Position numbers and translations under genes: made by a program. From positions 186,001 to 250,000 of the forward strand of contig NZ_JAESWC010000009.1 of NCBI RefSeq assembly GCF_016765585.1: 64,000 nucleotides of DNA. Direction: 5' to 3'. This DNA comes from Clostridium rhizosphaerae. Its GTDB lineage: Bacteria; Bacillota; Clostridia; Clostridiales; Clostridiaceae. The notes beneath the pieces were generated by a model that ran no database searches, was not told the DNA's origin, and saw only the letters and a program-made list of their open reading frames with translations. How positions within the stretch are numbered: the stretch's first letter is position 1; each line of letters starts with the position of its first letter. This document shows, piece after piece, positions 3,315 through 50,545 of the stretch.

Positions 3315-3402
3315 GGAGGTTGAAGTCCTAAATGGACTTCAACGGGTAATCTGCGAGCGGAAGCGAGTACTCTAGATTACCCAGTGTTTCGAGTGAAAGG
3401 AG
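3315..3402 (+). repeat. Structured leader repeat, single copy upstream of thyA
   Basis: Same element as the 74-bp tandem array at 49685-50136. Order: GGAGG (3315-3319). Hairpin 1: TTGAAGTCC / GGACTTCAA with loop TAAAT (3320-3342). Hairpin 2: GGGTAATCT / AGATTACCC (3344-3382), enclosing the conserved core GCGAGCG..AGCGAGT. Hairpin 3: TTTC-gagt-GAAA (3387-3398), which runs into the Shine-Dalgarno sequence GAAAGGAG (3395-3402) of thyA. Relative to the array copies, stems 1 and 2 differ by paired compensatory changes. The element lies in the mRNA leader. I do not recognise it as a named RNA family. Confidence 0.8.
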
Positions 3403-3410
3403 AAATTAAC

Positions 3411-3902
3411 ATGAGCACTGCAGACAAACAATATTTACAGCTGGTTAAGGATATATTAGAAAACGGCTATTATGAAACAGGAAACAGAACAGGAATACCA
3501 ACCTATAAGCTTCCTCATAGAATGTTTCAATTTAATTTAGAGAAGGAATTTCCTATACTTACAACAAAGTTTGTAGCTTTTAAAACTGCGGTTAAAGAAC
3601 TTTTGTGGATATACAAAGATCAATCCAATGATGTAAAGAAGCTTCAGGAGCAGAATGTACATATATGGGATGAGTGGATGAAGGAAGATGGAACTATAGG
3701 AACAGCTTACGGCTGGGTAGTTAAAGAATATAATCAAATTGATAATTTAATTGAAGGTCTTAAAAATGATCCTCAGGGCAGAAGACATATTATGAGCCTT
3801 TGGCAGATTCCTCACCTTAATGGCGGAACTCTTCACCCTTGTGCTTTTATGACAATGTGGGATGTAACTGATGGAAGATTGAACTGCATGCTTGTACAGC
3901 GT
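3411..3902 (+). CDS. thyA: Thymidylate synthase, exon 1
   Basis: Codons 1-164 of thymidylate synthase, which makes dTMP from dUMP with methylene-tetrahydrofolate. ATG 3411 has GAAAGGAG eight bases upstream; an earlier in-frame start at 3384 lies inside the leader repeat and is rejected. Family motifs include [17 protein letters not shown], and the nucleophile in [10 protein letters not shown] (C144). The exon ends with ..LVQR (R164), equivalent to the phosphate-binding Arg166 of E. coli, and is followed at once by an intron TAA stop. Joined to exon 2 (5073-5375) the protein is 264 residues, the same length as E. coli ThyA. An unspliced message would give a dead 164-residue fragment. Confidence 0.92.
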
Positions 3903-5072
3903 TAAAACTGAGCGCCCTTATGCAGTAATGCATATTGAATAACCTTGCTAAACAGGGAAACTCTTATTTTTTATAAGACAATCCTGTGCTAAATTTCTAT
4001 ATAAATATATAAATACATAATCTCTTTGAAAATGTATTAACCTATAATATATTTTTTAAAGGGATGATAATATGACGGGTTTGTATATTATTAAAAATAC
4101 AATAAATGATATGTTTTATGTAGGACATTCGGTAGACATAGAAAGACGGTTTAGAGCACATAAATCATATTTAATAAGGAATATACATCATTGCGTGTAT
4201 CTTCAGAGAGTATGGAATAAGTATGGTGAAGAAAACTTTGAATTTATTATATTAAAGGAATGTTCATTAGAAGAAAGTATTAAATTGGAACAGTATTATA
4301 TAGATAATTTTAAGAAAAGTATTTATAATACTGGAGACTTAGCAGCTTCTGGAGGAGATTTAATAAGCAATAACCCTAATATTGATAATATAAGGAAGAA
4401 AAAGAAACAAGATGCCATAAAATATTATAGTAGGCTAACTGATGAAGAAAAGAAAGAAAAGTATGGACGTAAAGGTGATAAAAATCCTATGTACGGAAAA
4501 CATCACACTGATGAAGTAAGAAAACTATTGAGTGAGAAAGCTAAGAGACCTAATCCGAACAAAGGCAAGAAAATTGAAGAGATTATAGGCTATGATAAAG
4601 CAAAAGAGGTTAAAAAAATCTTGTCTGAAAAAGCGTCTCAAAAAATAGGGGAGAAAAATCCTTTTTACGGTAAAACTCATAGTAATAGAATTAAGGAGAA
4701 GCTAAGAGAGAGAATGCTAGGAAGTAGACCAACAAATATAAGACCGGTAAGTATAGAAGGAATTATATATGAAAGTGTTACAGATGCTTCTCGAAGGTTA
4801 GATGTTTGCCTAGCTACTATAATATATAGAATAAAGTCTTCCAGCGAACAATATAAAAGTTATGGGTATTTAGATATTTAGATAGAATAAAAGCTTAACG
4901 ACTATCGAAACCGCGTTTATGAACGTAAGGGAGTAGAGTACACTGCAAGCTATTGGTAGTGGAAAAGCAAGGCTTCCCTGAAAGGGAAGGTGATATAGTC
5001 TGAACTCTATAGTGATATAGAGCTGTTCTTAAAGAACGAATAAGATTTAGCGAATCTTATTGAACATTAATG
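3903..5072 (+). mobile_element. Group I intron (IA2-like) in thyA
   Basis: 1170-nt self-splicing intron. Splice sites are fixed by pairings visible in the sequence. P1: exon GCGT (3899-3902) with internal guide GCGC (3912-3915), giving the required U-G pair at the splice site. P10: intron CTGA (3908-3911) with exon 2 TCAG (5073-5076). Terminal omega-G at 5072. The core has a P4-like pair, ACAGG near 3952 with CCTGT near 3982, in a context like the phage T4 td intron as I remember it (CTAAAC..GGGAA..GACAATCC.GTGCTAAAT). P7 is GACTA (4900-4904) with TAGTC (4996-5000). P9-type hairpins follow, including CTCTAT/ATAGAG and TAAGATT/AATCTTA. It carries an endonuclease gene. Confidence 0.93.
4072..4881 (+). 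CDS. GIY-YIG intron homing endonuclease, I-BmoI-like
   Basis: 269 residues, ATG 4072 preceded by AAAGGG. The N-terminal GIY-YIG nuclease has GLY (3-5), YVG (16-18), arginines 25/26/28 and the metal-binding glutamate E73 (KLEQYYIDNF). A linker carries two or more NUMOD3 motifs (GDKNPMYGKHH, GEKNPFYGKTH). The C-terminus (about 220-269) is a NUMOD1/helix-turn-helix DNA-binding part (SVTDASRRLDVCLATI). This layout and length match I-BmoI (266 residues) from the Bacillus mojavensis thyA intron. It would cut intronless thyA and drive intron homing. The frame is intact, so it is probably active. A weak promoter-like TTGAAA..ATATTT lies before it at about 4025-4053. Confidence 0.92.
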   Translation: MTGLYIIKNTINDMFYVGHSVDIERRFRAHKSYLIRNIHHCVYLQRVWNKYGEENFEFIILKECSLEESIKLEQYYIDNFKKSIYNTGDLAASGGDLISNNPNIDNIRKKKKQDAIKYYSRLTDEEKKEKYGRKGDKNPMYGKHHTDEVRKLLSEKAKRPNPNKGKKIEEIIGYDKAKEVKKILSEKASQKIGEKNPFYGKTHSNRIKEKLRERMLGSRPTNIRPVSIEGIIYESVTDASRRLDVCLATIIYRIKSSSEQYKSYGYLDI

Positions 5073-5375
5073 TCAGGTGATGTTGGTTTAGGAATTCCAT
5101 TTAATATGGCCCAATATGCAGTATTAGTTTACCTTATAGCTCAAGTAACAGGACTAAAACCGGGACTATTTACTCATGTTATTAATAATGCTCATATTTA
5201 TGAAAATCAAGTAGATGGCATGAAGCTTCAGCTTACAAGGGAAAATGAAGCTTATGAAGCTCCAAAGCTTTGGATTAATCCAGAGATTAAGAATTTTTAT
5301 GACTTTACTATAGAGGACATTAAACTTATTGATTACAAGCATCATCCGTCAATAAAAATGGAGGTGGCTGTTTAA
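5073..5375 (+). CDS. thyA: Thymidylate synthase, exon 2
   Basis: Codons 165-264 plus stop, beginning [11 protein letters not shown], the continuation of the QRS.D..LG.PFN signature that binds dUMP. Later conserved parts are [12 protein letters not shown] and the C-terminal closing residues MEVAV. The frame joins exactly after removal of 3903-5072. The apparent ATG at 5070 is intron sequence (ATG then TCA), so any separate protein starting there is an artefact. The TAA stop overlaps the ATG of folA (TAATG), so translation of the two dTMP-cycle enzymes is probably coupled. Confidence 0.92.
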
Positions 5376-28687: not shown

Positions 28688-28699
28688 GGGTGGGAATTT

Positions 28700-29626
28700 A
28701 TGAATAATGTTTTAGAACTTAATGATGTGCATAAATCCTTTGGAAAGATAGAGATAATTAAAGGAATAAGCTTTGAAGTAAAAGAGGGGGAAGTATATGG
28801 TTTTCTTGGACCAAATGGGTCAGGAAAAACTACCACAATAAGAATGATTGTGGGACTTATTAAGCCAAACAGTGGAAATATACGGATTAATGGATACGAT
28901 GTGCAAAAACAGTTTGTAAAGGCAGTTAGTTCAGTAGGATGTATTGTTGAAAATCCGGATATGTATTTGGATTTTACGGGAAGAGAAAATTTAAATATTT
29001 TTGCAAAGCTCTATGGAAATGTAGATAGTAAAAGAATAGATGAAGTCGTAGAAATTATAGGATTAAAAGATAGGATAGATGATAAGGTGAAAAAATATTC
29101 CCTTGGAATGAAGCAGAGATTAGGTTTAGGTCAAGCGCTGCTTCCTAAGCCTAAATTATTAATATTGGATGAGCCAACTAATGGATTGGATCCTTTAGGA
29201 ATTATTGATTTTAGAAATATAGTTAAGAATTTAGCCAAGGAATGTAATACTGCTGTCTTTGTATCATCTCATATTCTTTCAGAGATTGAACAGTTATGCG
29301 ATAAAGTTGCTTTTATAGATAATGGACTTATAAAATCTATAGAAAAGATAAATGGATTGAGCTCAAATAGCACAGAAAAAATTATACTTAAAATTCATGA
29401 AATTGAGAAAGCAAAGCAGCTTTTAGGAGAAGTTAGCTTTGTAAAAAAAGTTGAGGAAAAGGAAGGAAGCTTAATTATAACTGCAGATAAAGATTGCTAC
29501 TCTATGCTTATTACTATTCTAAGTGCAAAAGGAATACAGATATTAGACATTAATAGGATTCATCAGAATCTTGAAGATAGATTTATGGAGATATCTGGAG
29601 GAGGTAAGCACAGTGAATTTGTTTAA
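28700..29626 (+). CDS. ABC transporter ATP-binding protein (BcrA-like), cassette 1
   Basis: 308 residues. Walker A GPNGSGKTTTIRMI (about 37-50), signature YSLGMKQRLGLGQ, Walker B LLILDEPTNGLD, switch His in SSHILSE. This is the DRA/BcrA type that exports or removes peptide antibiotics such as bacitracin or lantibiotics. It begins 12 bases after the M56 sensor gene, so is in the BlaI operon. The permease gene overlaps its 3' end by 14 bases. The paralogue at 32092-33003 is very similar through the core. Confidence 0.93.
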   Translation: MNNVLELNDVHKSFGKIEIIKGISFEVKEGEVYGFLGPNGSGKTTTIRMIVGLIKPNSGNIRINGYDVQKQFVKAVSSVGCIVENPDMYLDFTGRENLNIFAKLYGNVDSKRIDEVVEIIGLKDRIDDKVKKYSLGMKQRLGLGQALLPKPKLLILDEPTNGLDPLGIIDFRNIVKNLAKECNTAVFVSSHILSEIEQLCDKVAFIDNGLIKSIEKINGLSSNSTEKIILKIHEIEKAKQLLGEVSFVKKVEEKEGSLIITADKDCYSMLITILSAKGIQILDINRIHQNLEDRFMEISGGGKHSEFV

Positions 29627-32068: not shown

Positions 32069-32091
32069 TTAGATAGGGGGTTGGGGATTTA

Positions 32092-33003
32092 ATGAATATT
32101 GTTCTGGAAGTTAACAATGTATATAAAAGCTTAAGCAGAAGAGAGATTATTAAAGGAATATCCTTCGATGTAAAAGAGGGAGAAATATTTGGATTTTTGG
32201 GGGCTAACGGGGCTGGAAAAACTACTACTATAAGAATGCTTGTTGGGCTTATTAAGCCTGATAAAGGAAACATAAGAATTATGGGCTATGATATCCAAAA
32301 GAATTTGGTAAAAGCCTTAAAGCAGGTTGGCTCTATAGTAGAATATCCGGATATGTATAATGACTTAACAGGAAGGGAAAATTTGATTATTTTTTCAAGG
32401 ATGTACGGCAATGTAAGCAAGGAAAGAATAGAAGAGATTATCGAGCTTATAGGTTTAAAGGACAGAATAGATGACAAGGTTAAAAAGTATTCCTTAGGAA
32501 TGAAGCAGAGATTAGGTCTTGGTCAGGCACTGCTTCCTAATCCGAAGCTTCTTATACTGGACGAACCAACAAATGGTTTTGATCCTCTTGGAATTATTGA
32601 GTTTAGAAATATAATAAAGAACTTGGCAAGAGAAAATAATACAGCAATTTTTATATCCTCACACATCTTAGCTGAAATTGAACAGGTTTGCGACAGGGTT
32701 GCTTTTATAGATAAGGGGATTATTAAATCTATCGAGTACACTAATAAACTTAAAAATAATGAAGAATATGACAAAGTGGAGCTTATAGTAAAAGAGCAAG
32801 CCAAGGGAGCAGAGCTTTTAGGCAAATTAGAGTATGTAAAAACAATTGATATACTTGATAATAAAATTTTATTAAGTATAGAGAAGGAAGCCTTCTCTAA
32901 GCTTATATTTGATTTGGGCAAAAATAATATTGAAGTTGAAAGCATCAATAAGCTTCATCAGAATCTTGAGGGAAGATTTATGCAAATTGTAGAGGAAGGT
33001 TAA
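32092..33003 (+). CDS. ABC transporter ATP-binding protein (BcrA-like), cassette 2
   Basis: 303 residues. Walker A GANGAGKTTTIRML, signature YSLGMKQRLGLGQ, Walker B LLILDEPTNGFD, switch His in SSHILAE. It closely resembles the cassette 1 ATPase (IDDKVKKYSLGMKQRLGLGQ shared), diverging mainly in the last 80 residues, which contact the permeases. Its two permeases follow directly. Confidence 0.93.
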   Translation: MNIVLEVNNVYKSLSRREIIKGISFDVKEGEIFGFLGANGAGKTTTIRMLVGLIKPDKGNIRIMGYDIQKNLVKALKQVGSIVEYPDMYNDLTGRENLIIFSRMYGNVSKERIEEIIELIGLKDRIDDKVKKYSLGMKQRLGLGQALLPNPKLLILDEPTNGFDPLGIIEFRNIIKNLARENNTAIFISSHILAEIEQVCDRVAFIDKGIIKSIEYTNKLKNNEEYDKVELIVKEQAKGAELLGKLEYVKTIDILDNKILLSIEKEAFSKLIFDLGKNNIEVESINKLHQNLEGRFMQIVEEG

Positions 33004-45434: not shown

Positions 45435-45479
45435 TACAAATAAGGAATAAGTTTCATGGAAGGCGGGGAGAAGTCCTAA

Positions 45480-46508
<1,029 letters not shown>

Positions 46509-49390: not shown

Positions 49391-49696
49391 ATGGTTAGTT
49401 TTTTTAGCAGTTCAACTGGTATAGCTGTTTTAGCAATTGCAGCATTTGTGGTTATTTACTTTTTAGGACCGAATCGTAAAGAAACTGATATTAGTGACAA
49501 TGTAAATGATGAACAGATAGCGGTATCAAAAATAAGCACAGTACGTGAAGAAGAAAACAGACAGGAAGATTTAGAGGTTGTTGCGGTTGTTATGGGAGCT
49601 TTATCCGCTTATCTAGATACACCTGTATCAAAGCTTAGAATAAAGAGTATAAAAAGAGTTGAACAAAACGTTCCTGTATGGAGGTCAAAGCCCTAA
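49391..49696 (+). CDS. Decarboxylase gamma-type small membrane subunit (OadG-like)
   Basis: About 101 residues from ATG 49391, with GAAGGT just before it. One N-terminal membrane helix (about 8-25), a charged middle, then VVAVVMGALSAYLDTPVSKLRIK, typical of OadG/MmdD-like subunits that tether the complex. The last codons (..WRSKP and TAA) lie in the first copy of the 74-bp tandem repeat. The repeat therefore supplies the C-terminal residues and the stop codon, so the original C-terminus may have been replaced. Confidence 0.8.
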   Translation: MVSFFSSSTGIAVLAIAAFVVIYFLGPNRKETDISDNVNDEQIAVSKISTVREEENRQEDLEVVAVVMGALSAYLDTPVSKLRIKSIKRVEQNVPVWRSKP

Positions 49697-50136
49697 ATGG
49701 GCTTTGACGGGCAGATTGCGAGCGAGAGCGAGTGATCTAAGCTGCCCAGTGGGCGGAGCCAAAGCCCTAAATGGGCTTTGACGGGCAGATTGCGAGCGAG
49801 AGCGAGTGATCTAAGCTGCCCAGTGGGCGGAGCCAAAGCCCTAAATGGGCTTTGACGGGCAGATTGCGAGCGAGAGCGAGTGATCTAAGCTGCCCAGTGG
49901 GCGGAGCCAAAGCCCTAAATGGGCTTTGACGGGCAGATTGCGAGCGAGAGCGAGTGATCTAAGCTGCCCAGTGGGCGGAGCCAAAGCCCTAAATGGGCTT
50001 TGACGGGCAGATTGCGAGCGAGAACGAGTGATCTAAGCTGCCCAGTGGGCGGAGCCAAAGCCCTAAATGGGCTTTGACGAGCAGATTGCGAGCGAGAGCG
50101 AGTGATTTAGACTGCCCAGTGTTCGAGAGAAAGGAG
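49685..50136 (+). repeat. Six tandem copies of a 74-bp structured repeat
   Basis: Units begin at AAAGCCC at 49687, 49761, 49835, 49909, 49983 and 50057 (period exactly 74). Units 1-4 are identical over the repeat, unit 5 differs by one base (GAGAACGAG), unit 6 by several. Each contains hairpin 1 TCAAAGCCC / GGGCTTTGA (loop TAAAT; later units start with C for T), hairpin 2 GGGCAG / CTGCCC around GCGAGCGAGAGCGAGT, and in units 1-5 a small GGC-gga-GCC hairpin. Unit 6 instead ends GTTCgagaGAAAGGAG, the ribosome binding site of the biotin-carrier gene. The period is not a multiple of three and no protein is encoded. The 453-base gap holds nothing else. Confidence 0.95.
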
Positions 50137-50149
50137 AAGAGAAATTAAA

Positions 50150-50545
50150 ATGAAGAAATATTATGTAACTGTTAATGGAAATAGATATGAGGTTGAGGTT
50201 GAAGAGGTAATGGGGAATTTTGAGCCAGTACAGCCGCAGATAACAGAGTCTAAAGCTTTAAAGACAGAAGTTAAGCAGCAAGAAATCAAAAAAGAAACAC
50301 CTAAAGCAGCGCCTAAGGCAGTACCAGAAGGGGGCACAAAAATAAATGCTCCAATGCCAGGTACAATAGTTGGAGTTAATATAAAAGAAGGAGACAAAAT
50401 TAACAAGGGAGATTTATTATTTGTTCTTGAAGCCATGAAAATGGAAAATGAAATTGTTTCACCAGTTGATGGAACAGTTGTAAGTGTTCAAGTTTCAAAA
50501 GGGCAGAGTGTTAATACCGAGGATTTAATGGCAGTTATAGAATAG
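50150..50545 (+). CDS. Biotin carboxyl carrier protein
   Basis: 131 residues from ATG 50150, AAAGGAG 13 bases upstream. N-terminal beta segment (KYYVTVNGNRYEVEVEEV), Ala/Pro/Lys-rich hinge (about 40-65), then the biotinyl domain with the modified lysine K97 in LEAMKMENEI. It carries the carboxyl group for the carboxyltransferase encoded at 47883. The long repeat array separates it from the gamma gene, so its translation may be governed by that RNA structure. Confidence 0.92.
   Translation: MKKYYVTVNGNRYEVEVEEVMGNFEPVQPQITESKALKTEVKQQEIKKETPKAAPKAVPEGGTKINAPMPGTIVGVNIKEGDKINKGDLLFVLEAMKMENEIVSPVDGTVVSVQVSKGQSVNTEDLMAVIE

Follow-up and report, generated by a model that had tools for sequence, protein, structure and literature searches.

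The window, by which we mean the whole 64-kb stretch of Clostridium rhizosphaerae DNA analysed here, contains a thyA gene preceded by a structured repeat of 84 nt and, further on, an array of related units before a biotin-carrier-type gene. thyA, its intron gene, DHFR and the neighbouring genes of the window were identified with Pfam. The parts of the two loci are listed below; the ends of the thyA copy (3319..3402) were set by analogy with the empty sites of relatives.

3315..3318, forward strand: GGAG, left half of the interrupted Shine-Dalgarno (SD) sequence, the target kept in the flank (placed by the empty-site rule and the left flanks)
3319..3402, forward strand: probable mobile element before thyA, 84 nt, GTTGAAG...AAAGGAG (covariance-model match 3318-3402, 108.9 bits)
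3319..3343, forward strand: stem P1, 10 bp, loop UAAAU at 3329-3333 (97.2% of cells paired; double changes in 9 of 10 pairs, alignment A2)
3344..3382, forward strand: stem P2, 3344-3352 with 3374-3382, enclosing P3 (97.4% paired; double changes in 8 of 9 pairs)
3353-3358 with 3363-3368, forward strand: stem P3, tandem G.A inside (96.9% paired; double changes in 4 of 4 pairs)
3369-3373, forward strand: bulge inside P2, 3' of P3
3387..3398, forward strand: possible mini-hairpin TTTC-GAGT-GAAA before the new SD, without covariation support
3396..3402, forward strand: AAAGGAG, with which the element ends, in the SD place of thyA, 8 nt from the ATG
3411..3905, forward strand: thyA exon 1, start at 3411 (Pfam Thymidylat_synt, profile positions 1-168 of 266)
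45470..45483, forward strand: GAAGTCCTAAATGG, exact match to the left half of the element, possible remnant
49684..50136, forward strand: about six 74-nt units in an array, left flank GGAG at 49680-49683
start at 50150, forward strand: biotin-carrier-type gene, preceded by the last array unit, which ends in an SD-type AAAGGAG

The thyA gene is itself split at 3903-5070 by an intervening sequence, likely a group I intron (a weak Rfam match lies at 3952-4017, E 0.039), which encodes a GIY-YIG endonuclease (4072-4881) whose DNA-binding domain is of the I-TevI type, and which we take to resemble the td intron of T4. The in-frame stop that closes the open reading frame of exon 1, at 3903-3905, lies just within the intervening sequence; exon 2 follows at about 5070-5375 and then DHFR. 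In the same-genus genome G002, thyA is uninterrupted. Elsewhere in the window, a LacI-family gene starts at the ATG of GAAGTCCTAAATGG, which may be a remnant that has become a start site, and two 300-nt stretches (28692-28991 and 32084-32383), 73% alike, are likely duplicated genes.

The leader sequence at 3315-3402 is as a previous sequence-only reading had described it, with stem 1 formed by TTGAAGTCC/GGACTTCAA around the loop TAAAT and stem 2 by GGGTAA/TTACCC, the latter proving longer than noted there, with 9 bp (GGGTAATCT/AGATTACCC). The array at 49684-50136 has the architecture of the thyA copy, with the paired differences which that reading had named. The 121-nt thyA leader folds at -39.8 kcal/mol (z -4.78), and none of 200 shuffled sequences folds as low. 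Two alignments were used for the analysis of covariation. The first (A1) is an unfitted MAFFT alignment of 33 of the 48 units read, picked by us for diversity; the covariance model (R1) was built from 33 of these 48. The second (A2) comprises 134 matches, forming 130 distinct rows, from 100 sources; it is fitted to the model and leans towards the model structure. In the 130 distinct copies of A2, all from the C. rhizosphaerae genome, 97.2% of the pair cells are canonical, double changes are found in 21 of the 23 pairs, and changes on both sides of a pair occupy 488 cells, where shuffles give 132 and slid controls 20-47, the kinship of the copies being ignored. The same helices are recovered in A1, with 107 both-sided cells against 27.6 in shuffles. 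The paired substitutions with conserved loops reported by the sequence-only reading are therefore borne out, and the pattern which it had named beforehand as speaking against a selected structure, namely non-paired substitutions as frequent as paired ones, is absent in the 130 copies. Since G.U cells outnumber A.C cells in these copies (91 against 35), the mRNA-sense strand is the folding one. Two details of the structure had to be revised. The core GCGAGCG..AGCGAGT, previously thought to be unpaired, forms P3, in which four covarying pairs flank a tandem G.A, present in 116 of the 130 distinct copies. The third mini-hairpin, TTTC-GAGT-GAAA, is unsupported, because it shows no double change in 33 copies (82.4% of cells paired) and does not appear in the thyA leader's minimum-energy fold. 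Taken alone, covariation in a leader RNA does not prove gene regulation, and the fold may be retained as much for mobility as for an effect on the mRNA.

The copy before thyA had also been regarded as a single one beside one array, which is wrong: a blast search of the C. rhizosphaerae genome with the thyA leader returned 64 matches, and the covariance-model search, in which 150 candidates were scored, at least 154. The position of the copies was counted at 105 places of this genome, from 100 sources. The start codon of an open reading frame lies 3-14 nt past the last match in 93 of them and at most 39 nt past it in 98; in five of these 98 the first-picked start was 16-39 nt off, and each of the five has a further unit or half unit followed by an SD and a start codon. 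Among the remaining seven places, five (L019, L026, L029, L257 and L281) continue into another unit, behind which a long open reading frame starts, one (L284) has an SD and an ATG with a short frame behind, and one, L261(-), gave no gene start downstream. A gene start is reached on the element's own strand at 103 of the 105 places, a figure which gives the orientation too, since the search covered only the downstream side on that strand. Two matches at L230 which repeat those of L255 had been dropped before the counts (134 to 132), and L071 and a few others, among them C1:208426, C1:441089, C22:350007, C25:140289 and C27:99417, were left out of the place counts. A pattern search of these sources finds 172-175 units, more than the 134 matches, because the model search suppresses tandem units that overlap by one base.

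On the left side, the flank of 101 first units is GAG in 87 and AAG in 6 (together 93/101, for backgrounds of 1.6% and 3.1%, respectively), and the full GGAG is found in 76; on the right side, the final bases of the element, (AA)AGGAG, occupy the place of the SD. In the named genomes, 36 of the 40 distinct pattern matches passed an automatic test for an SD and a start. The four that failed are L157, L166, L172 (C. oryzae) and L175 (5S rRNA spacer); in L157 and L166 the SD and the ATG are visible by eye.

The copies are also found within and behind one another. Tandem units join at the SD-like end, and an exact-pattern search for one subfamily returned 15 copies, ten of which show simple nesting: each lies inside a complete outer element, invariably behind the GAG of its P3 loop. 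Around these nested copies the two halves of the outer P2 are still complementary (computed for five of the ten, the rest by eye). One of the other subfamily copies lies in a more complex nest (L298), three keep only the 3' half of the outer element (L290, L294 and L296), and one is a plain tandem unit (L297). The nested junctions appear, in our reading by eye, to be short of one loop base. In Clostridium sp. OS1-26, a nested composite of at least 161 nt matches 12 other places at 90-98% identity, which speaks for a recent spread.

The comparison of filled and empty alleles gives the point of entry. The exact insertion points are known from OS1-26 (G148, identical to that strain over 1151 bases), whose congeners supply uninterrupted sites; the relatives of C. 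rhizosphaerae are too distant for a base-by-base placing at mnmG and thyA. The gene names murG, mnmG, recR, dapA, asparaginase-like and PIN/PhoH-like are our presumptive assignments from the starts of the proteins. Before the asparaginase-like gene, OS1-26 reads TTTTAAGGAG, element, GAATTTTTCATG, for TTTTAAGGAG followed directly by GAGTCTTTCGTG in the empty site of G150; G149 is empty too. Before the PIN/PhoH-like gene, it reads GGAAGAGGGGAG, element, GAATGATTTTG, for GGAAGAGGGGAG and GAATGGTTTTG in the empty site of G146; G149, G007, G145 and G147 are likewise empty, and G150 carries a decayed copy at the identical point. The murG site is filled in OS1-26 and empty in all six other congeners. 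In C. rhizosphaerae, the site before mnmG is filled, for empty sites in G001, G002 and G003, and the thyA site is empty in G002, whose exon-1 part of thyA is 93% identical. From these alleles it follows that the entry point is GGAG|G (GAG in murG), and that the distance from SD to start is unchanged or nearly so. The right copy is always AAGGAG, whatever the left flank, and GAG or GGAG stands on both sides at the three resolved sites.

Beyond C. rhizosphaerae the distribution is patchy. The element is carried by 31 of the 206 genomes of the family (E up to 1e-6) and by 16 of 58 mixed relatives (E up to 0.01), C. rhizosphaerae being included in both counts; the carriers among the matches listed are C. 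magnum, C. carboxidivorans, C. thailandense, C. caldaquaticum, C. lacusfryxellense, C. drakei, C. oryzae, sp. OS1-26 and several MAGs. No match was found by blastn in the plasmid or phage collections, nor by exact pattern in viral contigs. The spacers between 16S and 23S genes, and the stretches before 5S genes, hold more distant relatives of the element, which have the sense orientation at all eight loci checked with Rfam. These two-hairpin relatives occupy 16S-23S spacers at L083, L084, L088 and L089 and precede 5S at L081, L086, L087 and L099; those of the 5S type come after a 5S-like fragment, and L096, L098 and L101, outside the Rfam-scanned set, resemble the rRNA-spacer elements. In C. 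oryzae (G034; L103-L111) there are at least 12 matches of equal score, embedded in a longer repeat of which roughly 280 alignment columns are conserved; the ten that were read have the left flank CGTT and are without the SD-type end. As a longer autonomous version of the element, this repeat was considered and set aside. In G001 (L114, L115, L120 and L121) a long inverted repeat, itself recurrent, carries the element in its loop, where it follows GGAG or CGAG.

The explanation that we propose, and that we hold to be very probable, is that of a non-autonomous mobile element of about 84 nt inserting directly 3' of the SD sequence GGAG, the thyA copy being one such insertion. The sense-strand fold, the start after GGAG, the SD-like end, the tandem and nested copies and the presence or absence among related species are established, as far as sequence comparison goes. 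The element would owe its movement to an enzyme acting in trans, which takes it as a folded single strand and cuts after RAG, and the tandem arrays would arise by reinsertion into the element's own SD. The effect on the host gene would be close to neutral, because, as we propose, the element pairs within its own fold and supplies a substitute for the SD; the difference in predicted SD accessibility between two end classes, given below, speaks against this.

A cis-regulatory RNA (riboswitch, thermometer or protein-binding leader) which hides or frees the SD, and which has spread since the regulation is useful, would also account for the strong covariation, the conserved UAAAU loop, the sense-strand folding and the location at the SD, and the SD is predicted to be less accessible in the TCCGA end class (0.44, n=47) than in the TTTCGARTGAAA class (0.61, n=21). 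Against this stands the predicted SD accessibility of the 93 element leaders as a whole, whose median of 0.47 equals that of the 16 leaders of the window without the element (0.48, p 0.89), so that the hiding of the SD was rejected as the function. The downstream genes are functionally unrelated: in a random draw of 20 of the 91 downstream proteins, ABC_tran occurs in three, the others belong to different families and two are without a match; no common function was found among these 20 genes, and a regulon was rejected on this ground. Orthologues do without the element, copies are nested in one another, and Rfam 15 returned no match in the 64-kb window at the gathering threshold and, with E up to 10, nothing overlapping the element or the array. 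We therefore regard cis-regulation as unlikely. The regulation of thyA by its leader, implied by the sequence-only reading, is contradicted by the unrelated downstream genes, by the absence of the element before thyA of G002 and by the insertion sites within SDs, resolved to the base in relatives; its interpretation is supported in part, the thyA copy being very probably one insertion of a mobile element and no thyA-specific regulator. A nearly neutral passenger is the simplest reading, the structure of which may be kept for moving, for harmlessness in the mRNA, or for both.

The nature of the mover raises two other possibilities. A REP-type palindrome, with a REP-associated tyrosine transposase (TnpA_REP/RAYT) as its mover, is suggested by a hairpin with a conserved foot tetranucleotide (GGAG in 76/101), an internal mismatch, many copies and tandem groups, as REP sequences are portrayed in part of PMC8266576. 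The foot is nevertheless GRAG, and TAG and TGG endings do not occur among the 101 left flanks. The model had no match in 19 Y1-type regions from 13 genomes, which include one of the two Y1 matches of C. rhizosphaerae, the only match in that scan being in an rRNA region (L148); another repeat, GGGACGGTTAAC, adjoins three of the four RAYT genes whose flanks were examined, and Y1/RAYT transposases were rejected as the mover on these two grounds. Nor does the copy number follow the Y1 counts, G044 having 25 Y1 and no copy, and G007 six copies and no Y1_Tnp match. The REP reading is, in our opinion, quite unlikely. As to the repeat GGGACGGTTAAC itself, it flanks RAYT genes of about 303-307 aa in L129, L130 and L136, with its complement too in L130 and L136. 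The other possibility is a movement or removal at the RNA level, by reverse splicing into the SD of an mRNA or by an excision that restores the SD. The sense orientation in the mRNA leaders and in the eight rRNA-spacer copies checked, together with the RNA-like covariation, is in its favour, and an exact removal would recreate the empty allele; but Rfam gives no ribozyme match, and 84 nt is, to our knowledge, shorter than any self-splicing intron, so that we give this reading hardly any weight. It is likewise very unlikely that the element enters the SD of mRNA-sense single strands, possibly through the ribosomal recognition of GGAG, and can be removed exactly from transcripts with restoration of the SD.

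For the proposed mobile element, the mover would most likely be of the HUH single-strand kind, a step that we advance tentatively. The left target motif, the matching 3' motif, the lack of terminal inverted repeats and the strand-specific fold give it the likeness of IS200/IS605-type single-strand elements (PMC6006769, PMC8266576). The assignment is held at this level because the Y1 regions are free of copies, the RAYT genes go with another repeat, the copy number and the Y1 counts disagree, one loop base appears to be lost at nested junctions, and because of the C. oryzae copies. Such a loss of a loop base would be unlike the known chemistry of IS200/IS605.

Several known systems share features with the element. 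In the portions of PMC6006769 that bear on them, the ends of IS200/IS605 elements are described with a target motif that stays on the left, a similar element end, hairpins and no terminal inverted repeats; the retained 5' target motif, the matching 3' motif and the hairpins are all found here. Unlike these insertion sequences, the element is without a gene and no transposase was found, and of the guide stretch which the family has 5' of each hairpin none was found, there being none 5' of P1 because P1 begins directly at the left end. REP/BIME sequences and their TnpA_REP, to judge from sections of PMC8266576 and PMC6006769, are similar in the small size, the many copies, the hairpin with a foot tetranucleotide, the tandem groups and the single-strand recognition, with a foot of GT[AG]G for GRAG here; the present element differs in having two hairpins, one with a tandem G.A, in sitting in SDs and ending in one, and in not lying beside the Y1/RAYT genes examined. 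With MITEs, as outlined in part of PMC10969869, it has in common that it is short, non-coding, dispersed and non-autonomous, but terminal inverted repeats of the MITE type are absent in the thyA copy (GTTGAAGTCCTA against CTCCTTTCACTC), and apart from the GGAG that the element carries there appears to be no duplicated target. The TAACTGA repeats of Beggiatoaceae, according to passages of PMC4679880, also lie just upstream of the start codons of functionally unrelated genes and are patchy; they are heptamers, and their hosts seldom have canonical ribosome-binding sites, while the present element brings the SD with it. IStrons and group I introns are, in the relevant part of PMC4227781, likewise structured mobile elements in Clostridia which limit the harm to the host gene; at 84 nt, the element differs from them in that no catalytic core was found, and Rfam gave no Intron_gpI match over it with E up to 10.

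A small non-autonomous repeat is a known kind of element. In the literature searched, which held few subscription journals, we found no description of SD targeting with a self-supplied SD or of a loop-to-loop nesting, which is weak evidence that these are new. If the movement at the RNA level were true, the element would be the smallest intron-like mobile element, and the first one aimed at ribosome-binding sites. In the preferred reading of a non-autonomous mobile element, it gives a clear search target, an enzyme with RAG specificity, and it could serve as a naturally occurring modular 5' leader. In the C. rhizosphaerae genome at least 103 gene leaders are due to it, and a mobile element that lands in the SD, and whose own SD end limits the damage, would represent a novel strategy for persisting in a densely packed genome.
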